A DNA stretch of 64,000 bases from Halanaerobium salsuginis. Lineage in GTDB: Bacteria > Bacillota > Halanaerobiia > Halanaerobiales > Halanaerobiaceae. A program made the translations under genes and the position numbers. Position 1 is the first letter of the stretch. Each line of letters opens with the position of its first letter. Below are positions 18,267 through 57,252 of the stretch, in pieces. The notes under the pieces are model-generated. The model was not told where the DNA came from and did not search any database. It saw nothing but the letters and a program-made list of their open reading frames with translations. The stretch covers positions 1 to 64,000 of the forward strand of contig NZ_FOTI01000001.1 in the NCBI RefSeq assembly GCF_900114545.1, written 5' to 3'.

Positions 18267-18297
18267 ACATGCAAAATCACCTCTACTAAAACTTTTA

Positions 18298-18545
18298 AGA
18301 TAGCACAACATTATAATTAATAATTATAATGACAGTCCTGTATATATTTTATACAGACCCAGCAAATTATCCAGAAAACCAGCTGAACAATTGCTTCGGC
18401 GATAAAACCTTTCCTCATTAACTAAACTCTATAAAAGCAGCAATTTGGTTTTATTTCTATTATAATGATTACTAATTTTTACCGCACCTCTACCTCATCA
18501 GTTTAAGATGAGGCTTTTCTAGTCAAAGACTATATTCTATTATTT
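18298..18545 (-). ncRNA. Lysine riboswitch (L-box)
   Basis: The minus-strand leader carries the conserved L-box blocks in order: GATGAGGTAGAGGTGCGG (about 18499-18482), AGTAAT, GAGGAAAGG, CGCCGAAGC, CTGG, TTGCTGGGTCTG, a hairpin loop, ACTGTCA, and the closing GTGCTATC. The P2 helix (GCCTCATC / GATGAGG) with its internal-loop turn is visible. A terminator follows at 18266-18237. Lysine binding should end transcription early, so the operon is expressed when lysine is scarce. This directly ties the downstream transporter, amidohydrolase and NhaC-type carrier to lysine supply. Confidence 0.93.
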
Positions 18546-26261: not shown

Positions 26262-26302
26262 AATCATTAAGTTAAATTTTGAGTTCAAAAGGAGGGCAAA
26301 GT

Positions 26303-27049
26303 TTGCTAAACCTTACTGATAAAAAAGTTTTGATTACAGGAAGTTCCCGGGGAATTGGAGCTGCAATAGCCAGAAAAATGGCGGCTTTAGGTGCAATTGT
26401 AACTTTAAATTATGCCAATTCAGAAACAAATGCTTTAGAATTACAAAATGAACTAGAAGCAAGTGGGAGCAGAGCATTTGTCATTCAGGCTGATGTTGGT
26501 GATTACAATGCAGCAGCTACTTTGGTTAAAGCAGCTTATCAAAAAATGTCAGGTTTAGATATCTTGATTAATAATGCCGGGATAACCAGAGATAAACTAT
26601 TATTGAGGATGAAAGAATCCGACTGGGATCAAGTAATGAATATTAATCTAAAAGGTGTTTTTAATTGTACTAAAAACGCAGTTAGATATTTACTTAAATC
26701 TGAACAGGGAAGAATTATAAATATTTCTTCTGTGGTTGGAATTAATGGCAATGCTGGCCAGGCAAATTATTCAGCAGCAAAAGCAGGTATTATAGGATTT
26801 ACTAAGTCTTTAGCTAAAGAATTAGCTGCCCGGGGAGTTTGTAGTAATGCGGTTGCACCTGGATTTATTACAACTGATATGACAGATGAGCTGACAGATC
26901 AGTTAAAAGAAGAGATCTTAAAGCAGATTCCACTTGCCAGGTTAGGCAAAGCAGAAGAAGTTGCTAATTTAGTAGCTTTTCTGGCTTCTGATCAAGCTGC
27001 CTACATAAATGGAGAAGTAATTAAAATTGATGGTGGAATGGGTGCTTAG
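26303..27049 (+). CDS. fabG: 3-oxoacyl-ACP reductase FabG
   Basis: A 248-residue short-chain dehydrogenase that reduces 3-oxoacyl-ACP with NADPH. Motifs are TGSSRGIGAAIA (nucleotide binding), NNAG near residue 89, the catalytic serine in ISSVVG near 141 and YSAAKAG near 154. TTG at 26303 follows AAGGAGGGC and gives the normal family length; an upstream in-frame TTG at 26279 adds eight residues without a ribosome site. Its stop is followed at once by the 62-bp repeat array. Confidence 0.93.
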   Translation: MLNLTDKKVLITGSSRGIGAAIARKMAALGAIVTLNYANSETNALELQNELEASGSRAFVIQADVGDYNAAATLVKAAYQKMSGLDILINNAGITRDKLLLRMKESDWDQVMNINLKGVFNCTKNAVRYLLKSEQGRIINISSVVGINGNAGQANYSAAKAGIIGFTKSLAKELAARGVCSNAVAPGFITTDMTDELTDQLKEEILKQIPLARLGKAEEVANLVAFLASDQAAYINGEVIKIDGGMGA

Positions 27050-27054
27050 CCAGC

Positions 27055-27244
27055 CTAGTGCGAAGGGCTCACTGCCCTAGTGCTAGGTCGACCACTGTGT
27101 TTATAAAAGAAGACAACTAGTGCGAAGGGCTCACTGCCCTAGTGCTAGGTCGACCATTGTGTTTATAAAAGAAGACAACTAGTGCGAAGGGCTCACTGCC
27201 CTAGTGCTAGGTCGACCACTGTGTTTATAAAAGAAGACCTAGTG
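27055..27244. repeat. Tandem array of three 62-bp structured repeats between fabG and acpP
   Basis: Copies start at 27055, 27117 and 27179, with a remnant at 27239. Copies 1 and 2 are 62 bases and differ by one base (position 41, C or T); copy 3 lacks two bases at its end. Each holds a stem AGGGC-TCACT-GCCCT inside outer CTAG/CTAG pairs, a near-palindrome CCTAGTGCTAGG and a perfect palindrome GGTCGACC. The unit has 30 G or C in 62, much richer than the surroundings. I found no other copy in the window. There is no open frame through it. Confidence 0.95.
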
Positions 27245-27260
27245 AAAGGAGGTGAATGGA

Positions 27261-27494
27261 GTGGACAAGATTAAATCAAGAGTAATCGAAATTGTAGCAG
27301 AAGAGTTAGCTGTTGATGTTGATGAAATCAATGAGGACTCTTCATTTATAGATGATTTAGGAGCAGACTCTCTGGATGTTGTAGAATTAGTTATGGCATT
27401 TGAGGAAGAGTTTGATGTAGAAATTCCTGATGAGGATGCAGAGGACATTCGCACAGTTGATGATGCTGTAAATTATCTGGAAGATATTCTTTAA
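27261..27494 (+). CDS. acpP: Acyl carrier protein
   Basis: A 77-residue, highly acidic helical protein carrying the phosphopantetheine attachment motif [10 protein letters not shown] (serine near residue 37). It carries growing acyl chains for FabK/FabG and donates to PlsX. GTG at 27261 is 7 bases after AAAGGAGGTG and gives the family length exactly. The upstream triple repeat sits between it and fabG and may separate their expression levels. Confidence 0.96.
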
Positions 27495-27511: not shown

Positions 27512-27547
27512 GGATGAAGCTCCATTTGGGGCTTTCATCCGTTTTTA
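27512..27547 (+). terminator. Terminator after acpP
   Basis: GGATGAAGC pairs with GCTTTCATCC (one bulge) around CCATTTGGG-like pairing, followed by GTTTTTATTT. Confidence 0.8.
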
Positions 27548-27556
27548 TTTATCTGA

Positions 27557-28291
27557 ATGGATGGTGATATAAAGAAGATGAGTCAGTTATTTAATCAAAG
27601 GAAATTAATGGAGTTTGAAAAAAGTCTGCTGCTTGATTTTAAAGATAAGCTGTTGATTCAACGGGCTTTAACTCATAAGTCTTTTCCTAATGAAAATAGA
27701 CGTTTGCATTTGAAAGATAATGAAAGATTGGAATTTTTGGGAGATTCAGTTTTAAGCCTGGCCATTAGTACTTATTTATTTACCCGCTTTTCTAATTTGC
27801 CAGAAGGAGATCTTGCTAAAATGCGAGCAGTAATAGTAAGCGCTCCTATTTTAGCTGGTGCAGCTAAAAGAATTGAATTAGGTCAATTCTTATTCCTGGG
27901 TAAAGGTGAAGAAATGACTGGAGGCAGGGAAAGAGATTCTATTCTTGCAGATACTATGGAAGCAATTTTTGGTGCTTTATATCTTGATCAGGGATTTGAA
28001 ACAGCAAGCGAACTTATTTTAAGATTACTTAAACCAGATATTATTGATGTTGTGGAAGGTAATCATATTCAGGACTACAAGACTATGCTTCAGGAAGTAA
28101 TTCAAGAGAATGGCAACATTCGACCAGAATATGAAGTTATTGGAGAAGAAGGTCCTGACCATAATAAAACATTTAAGGTTGCTGTTAAGTTAAAAGAAGA
28201 TAATCTTGGTTCTGGTTGTGGATCAAGTAAAAAAGAAGCTGAACAGGAAGCAGCAAAAGTTGCTTTAGATAAACTTAATAAATTAAATTAA
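27557..28291 (+). CDS. rnc: Ribonuclease III
   Basis: Up to 244 residues. The endonuclease domain has the signature ERLEFLGDSVLSL near residue 55 and the second acidic site DTMEAIFGALYLD near residue 133. The carboxyl part is a double-stranded RNA binding domain (DYKTMLQE...KEAEQEAAK). It processes rRNA and structured mRNAs. The start is uncertain: ATG at 27557 has no clear ribosome site, and ATG at 27578 has only a weak AAGAAG. Linkage to acpP is conserved in Firmicutes. Confidence 0.94.
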   Translation: MDGDIKKMSQLFNQRKLMEFEKSLLLDFKDKLLIQRALTHKSFPNENRRLHLKDNERLEFLGDSVLSLAISTYLFTRFSNLPEGDLAKMRAVIVSAPILAGAAKRIELGQFLFLGKGEEMTGGRERDSILADTMEAIFGALYLDQGFETASELILRLLKPDIIDVVEGNHIQDYKTMLQEVIQENGNIRPEYEVIGEEGPDHNKTFKVAVKLKEDNLGSGCGSSKKEAEQEAAKVALDKLNKLN

Positions 28292-57099: not shown

Positions 57100-57121
57100 A
57101 TAATTAACAAACTAATAGATT

Positions 57122-57246
57122 ATCTTCAGGGTATGGTGAGTTATCAAGTTTGATAATAAATCCAGACCGGTGGTAAAAGTCCACGAGCTCAAGCTGAACT
57201 GGTGTAATTCCAGTACCGACGGTAAAGTCCGGATAAAGAAGATCGT
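57122..57246 (+). ncRNA. FMN riboswitch (RFN element)
   Basis: The conserved blocks appear in order: ATCTTCAGGG, AATCCAGACCGG-TGG, AAAGTCCACGAGC, GGTGTAATTCCAGTACCGAC, GGTAAAGTCCGGAT and the closing AAGAAGAT, which pairs with the opening ATCTTC. A terminator follows immediately. FMN binding should reduce expression of the riboflavin transporter gene. Confidence 0.96.
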
Positions 57247-57252
57247 AAATTA

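Follow-up and report, generated by a model that had tools for sequence, protein, structure and literature searches.

In the window, i.e., the whole stretch of 64,000 nucleotides from a Halanaerobium salsuginis genome of 3.0 Mb in 100 contigs, three direct copies of a structured repeat lie between the fabG reading frame (26279..27049, + strand; its true start may be ca. 25 bp further in) and acpP, the gene for acyl carrier protein (27261..27494, + strand, with GTG as the most likely start). On its 3' side, acpP is followed by a terminator-like hairpin (27516..27535, + strand) and an RNase III-like ORF (27557-28291). An earlier note on this DNA had described three near-identical repeats between fabG and acpP that differ by one substitution and are GC-richer than their surroundings, and our analysis confirmed this: TRF places an array at 27055-27238 (period 62, 3.0 copies, 98% match, score 361) that is by far the strongest within the window, and its GC content is 0.48 compared to 0.32-0.40 around it. 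Rfam 15 has no match in the array up to an E-value of 10, and elsewhere in the window it recognizes lysine and FMN riboswitches (18293-18500 on the - strand and 57118-57247 on the + strand).

Using the empty and filled sites of relatives for comparison, we set the ends of the copies at 27060..27121, 27122..27183, and 27184..27243 (all + strand), i.e., units of 62, 62, and 60 bp of which the third is complete. The copies vary only at 27095/27157/27219 (C/T/C, a single substitution between copies 1 and 2) and at the last junction, which reads GACAACTAG in copies 1 and 2 and GACCTAG in copy 3. This near identity backs the proposal of a recent amplification or gene conversion. Each unit is composed of a hairpin A followed by a hairpin B: in copy 1, the stem of hairpin A (27065-27068/27074-27077) encloses the loop TCACT, while hairpin B starts with the 5' arm CTAGGTC (27083-27089) and carries GTG in its loop (27097-27099). 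Hairpin B contains an AA bulge in copies 1 and 2 and is formed by the arms CTAGGTC (27207-27213) and GACCTAG (27236-27242) in copy 3, where the loop-loop pair consists of CAC (27194-27196) and GTG (27221-27223). The array is directly followed by GAAAGGAGG (27244..27252, + strand), which comprises a target-like G and the Shine-Dalgarno sequence of acpP.

The repeat belongs to a family of ca. 60-bp two-hairpin units for which we built a first covariance model from 14 hand-picked examples. Covariance searches detected units in all 12 genomes of the genus (2-30 matches each at E-values up to 0.1) and in 35 of 59 genomes of the class (up to 41 matches each), and a second model was positive in 12 of 398 genomes of the phylum, namely 11 members of the class and one weak outlier. 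Carriers that can be named from exact motif matches include Halanaerobium congolense, saccharolyticum, kushneri, and polyolivorans as well as Fuchsiella and other Halanaerobiales. A single exact match in an unrelated Akkermansiaceae MAG is not recognized by the covariance model, and a search of viral contigs gave no match. The search for the 62-bp unit that the earlier note had called for found no copy outside the acpP array in the genome of the window, while relatives carry dispersed copies at many loci. No Rfam family matched the units of relatives at gathering score, and searches of open-access literature for Halanaerobium or Halanaerobiales turned up no description of the element. This family of Halanaerobium and its class is apparently undescribed. 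The same two-hairpin layout with other loops (AGGAU/ACGAU and TAGTAC, GACGGACANGATGTCCTAGTAC) appears at L220-L223 (on G225:C24, G225:C97, and G019:C38), a possible sister type in a distant member of the phylum and in G019 that suggests a wider superfamily.

Across the family, hairpin A has a 4-bp stem with a UCGAU-type loop and a GAC/UA internal loop, and hairpin B has a covarying stem of 6-8 bp and a loop of 20-22 nt ending in AUAAAAGAA. The window copies conform to the family in hairpin A, hairpin B, and the complementarity of loops A and B, with the TCACT loop and GAA in place of GAC as deviations in hairpin A; covariance model R1 scores copy 3 at 75.3 bits (E-value 3e-19) and copies 1 and 2 at 49 bits. 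While the loops are conserved, the stem sequences vary freely and yet remain Watson-Crick complementary. On a plain MAFFT alignment that had not been fitted to the model, 10 of 14 stem pairs show double changes, 98.5% of cells are paired, and the covariation score of 0.63 (0.25 when shuffled) lies far above both shuffles and slid controls. An alignment of 79 distinct units, this one fitted to the model, agrees with this covariation, and the loop pair in it is G-C in 64 cases, A-U in 12, G-U in one, and another combination in one.

The two loops covary with each other as well: CGA is matched by NCG, CAA by UUG (9/9), CGC by GCG (2/2), and CAC by GUG in all three window copies, a compensated combination that is found in the window units alone. 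Exceptions to this pattern are a handful of weak copies (L131, L074, L127, and L135) that do not belong to the strict set. The covariation thus indicates a contact between the loops. Stems of RNA molecules normally pass through G.U pairs. Among the standard pairs in the variable stems of the element, 1.3-1.6% are G.U, compared to 7.6% when tRNA, T-box, and TPP structures from these genomes are counted (p = 1e-5, with cells that are not independent). From this near absence we infer that the stems pair at the level of DNA or that their arms are copied from each other. A G.U-rich outer stem that had at first looked like a sign of RNA was dropped because junction mapping showed its outer bases to come largely from the flank.

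In relatives, where protein genes were named from sequence signatures and not from a database scan, units lie upstream of acpP, 16S rRNA (in the rRNA leader), rpmB, a fliK-like gene, and V-ATPase genes. Other units adjoin riboswitches and T-boxes (TPP, valS, thrS), follow groEL, or interrupt tnpB, and antisense units are found between rpsH/rplF, ilvN/ilvC, and alaS/tyrS as well as beside tRNA 3' ends. At four of the latter (L089, L091, L093, L094) the antisense unit sits right at the tRNA, and its last bases overlap the apparent CCA end; at three other loci (L121, L123, L141), short CT-rich repeats (CCTCCAATCTCTAACC-like) accompany the units. We rejected the idea of a riboswitch or T-box extension because the units adjoin such RNAs but also many unrelated loci.

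This distribution bears directly on the proposal that the array is a multi-site operator for a DNA-binding regulator of fatty acid synthesis. Each window copy does contain the two palindromes at which such a regulator would bind, GGTCGACC (perfect) and CCTAGTGCTAGG (imperfect). However, neither is a feature of the family, as relatives carry, e.g., GAGTCGACC or GAGTTATCC in their place, and the stems and hence the palindromes are not conserved between species even at the acpP locus. Related units before 16S rRNA, rpmB, valS, and thrS, after groEL, and inside tnpB also speak against an operator, and no sigma-70-like promoter was found when we looked for one in the array. This explanation is therefore largely refuted and must be regarded as highly improbable.

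Several pairs of empty and filled sites document the insertion of the element. Inside the coding sequence of tnpB, CCATC|TGCTG is split as CCATC[element]TGCTG, and 3' of tnpB four sites (GCGTC|GCACTT, AAGAC|GAATTGG, ACCTC|GYAAGTTC, and CTATTA|GAATGC) are occupied in some copies and empty in others. In five genomes (G005, G006, G007, G008, and G010; L152-L166), the number of units 3' of tnpB ranges from none to several, spread over as many as four distinct sites, which makes this part of IS605 a natural experiment on gain and loss of the element. We considered that units at this position might be the omega-RNA of TnpB but rejected this, as several tnpB copies have these sites unoccupied. The acpP unit of three species is itself interrupted at GTGCT|GAGTC by a second, different unit, and one locus shared by two species (L003 and L009) differs by exactly one whole tandem unit. 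No target site duplication was seen at the mapped empty and filled sites, so the element appears, judging from these related sequences, to insert cleanly. Left flanks vary among the five mapped sites, and a bias is seen only in the right flank, towards G(AA): a G follows 57 of 65 non-tandem units and GAA follows 31 of 65. Stem pairs are intact to the same degree in antisense copies (97.0%, n=15) and sense copies (96.6%, n=24). Given that copies antisense to both of their neighbors are as intact as sense copies, mobility is probably what maintains the structure.

These results also bear on the remaining ideas of the earlier note. Its suggestion of a small mobile repeat is supported by the dispersed copies in relatives and their clean empty and filled sites, while a role as acpP operator, stabilizer, or processing element is not supported as the reason for the structure, given that unrelated, antisense, and in-tnpB copies are equally intact and that two Halanaerobium genomes (G008 and G010) have no element at this gene.

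A cis-acting function could nonetheless have been acquired at this locus. Hairpins in a fabG-acpP transcript might create a stable 5' end or a processing site next to the Shine-Dalgarno sequence that uncouples the abundant acpP mRNA from fabG, perhaps with an element that was once mobile and is now kept. The element precedes acpP in 10 of the 12 genomes of the genus and additionally in G013 and G057, and in G002 and G005 the locus is reduced essentially to hairpin B, directly adjoining the Shine-Dalgarno sequence. In the genome of the window, the acpP array with its compensated CAC/GUG loop pair is the sole survivor of the family, and its + strand folds far better than shuffled sequences (z = -5.9; minus strand, z = -1.1). 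The persistence before acpP, the unique loop pair, and the clearly better fold of the + strand as RNA are also points against an explanation by mobility, and the first two could reflect selection in cis. However, G012 lacks the element at acpP just like G008 and G010, the preference for G(AA) as target accounts for the position, antisense copies are no less intact, and the G.U pairs expected of RNA stems are nearly missing. We therefore consider a cis-acting RNA unlikely.

Instead, the array most probably goes back to an old insertion, since amplified in tandem, of a mobile element of the Halanaerobiia/Halanaerobiales that is miniature (59-62 bp), non-coding, and non-autonomous. The element is exactly the size of its fold, with hairpin A at the 5' end, hairpin B ending ca. 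2 bases before the 3' end, and the two loops joined by a contact of 2-3 bp. Judging from its junctions, it inserts in either orientation, without target duplication, and mostly in such a way that a G (often GAA) follows. This is why copies are carried by rRNA leaders (GAACCTTG) and abut strong ribosome-binding sites (GAAAGGAGG). The acpP Shine-Dalgarno sequence matches this target, and the position of the array is most simply accounted for in this way. As the first base of the element is often a G itself, one copy can land on the end of another and give rise to head-to-tail arrays, which unequal recombination could then homogenize. The folded form would be what a mobilizing enzyme recognizes, most likely as single-stranded DNA, since the stems are almost devoid of G.U pairs. 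At acpP, the element may mainly be a tolerated passenger: the Shine-Dalgarno sequence is predicted to stay mostly unpaired (0.88 in the window), so that a neutral insertion would be tolerated there.

A bolder version of the mobile element appears rather doubtful to us. In this scenario, the two-hairpin unit with its loop-loop pairing is an entire genome of 60 nt whose hairpins may each renew one arm by copying the other during movement, and some species have then recruited the acpP copy as a cis element. Re-copying of arms would explain how stems can drift freely and still keep their Watson-Crick pairs, with almost no intermediates of the G.U type.

Among the closest precedents for a short element without its own gene are REP/REPIN sequences, i.e., short non-coding intergenic hairpins in many copies whose proposed mobilization involves a folded single-stranded DNA form and Y1 enzymes that are relatives of the IS200/IS605 transposases (PMC3116915, PMC8266576). 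The element of the Halanaerobiia is similarly short, non-coding, hairpin-forming, intergenic, and multicopy, and Y1 transposases (PF01797) are present in 32 of 35 genomes with units compared to 13 of 24 without (p = 0.0015). In a more specific version of the mobile explanation, a RAYT (TnpA-REP) transposase would move the element, in line with its hairpins, mostly intergenic location, non-autonomous nature, and lack of target duplication. Most Halanaerobium genomes encode ORFs of RAYT size (180-198 aa) with a Y1_Tnp match, and a PF01797 search of the genome of the window, from which the family is otherwise gone, returned no match at all. However, a comparison of coordinates showed that these ORFs of the genus are not close to any unit, i.e., no RAYT gene flanked by repeats was found in the genus. 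PF01797 was also not detected in two other unit-bearing genomes (G020 and G026), and an intact candidate is missing in these two and in G013. Furthermore, there is no space for a 5' guide motif ahead of hairpin A, and the flanks contain no conserved motif of the GTAG type. In a REPIN, a single conserved palindrome is paired with its inverted copy, whereas the Halanaerobiia unit has two different hairpins in direct orientation, forms direct tandems, and differs further by its freely varying stems, conserved loops, and loop-loop contact. Elements derived from IS200/IS605 insert 3' of a fixed tetranucleotide, which is not seen at the five mapped sites, though the absence of target site duplications is shared. 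Mobilization by a RAYT enzyme therefore seems improbable to us.

With its precise junctions and its unusual combination of free stems, conserved paired loops, and almost no G.U pairs, this apparently undescribed family of mobile elements, found across a single class of bacteria, makes it testable how such tiny sequences can move although they encode nothing themselves. It offers a reason for copies beside rRNA leaders and strong ribosome-binding sites and serves as a warning that a structured repeat ahead of a highly expressed gene is not necessarily a regulator. The earlier interpretation is thus supported in its mobile and amplification parts, while its operator, stabilizer, and processing parts are not supported as the reason for the structure.

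Among other known systems, type III toxin-antitoxin RNA arrays (ToxI) are tandem repeats with a pseudoknot-like fold, but the acpP array has no toxin gene beside it, and its family includes dispersed, antisense, and nested copies. Neither the terminal inverted repeats nor the target duplication of classical MITEs moved by DDE transposases were found. BOX and ERIC are modular intergenic stem-loop repeats with variable copy number near expressed genes; the Halanaerobiia element resembles them in these traits but, by description and not by sequence, is set apart in size, organization, and hosts, and we know of no loop-loop covariation in BOX and ERIC. The double-hairpin elements of fungal and algal mitochondria are very small, consist of two hairpins, and occupy many unrelated insertion sites. 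Going by their description, they share the mobile two-hairpin layout with our element, though in different organisms. The Halanaerobiia element works like other miniature hairpin elements, i.e., REPIN, BOX, and double-hairpin elements, yet lacks those defining features of REP/REPIN and MITE sequences that we tested.
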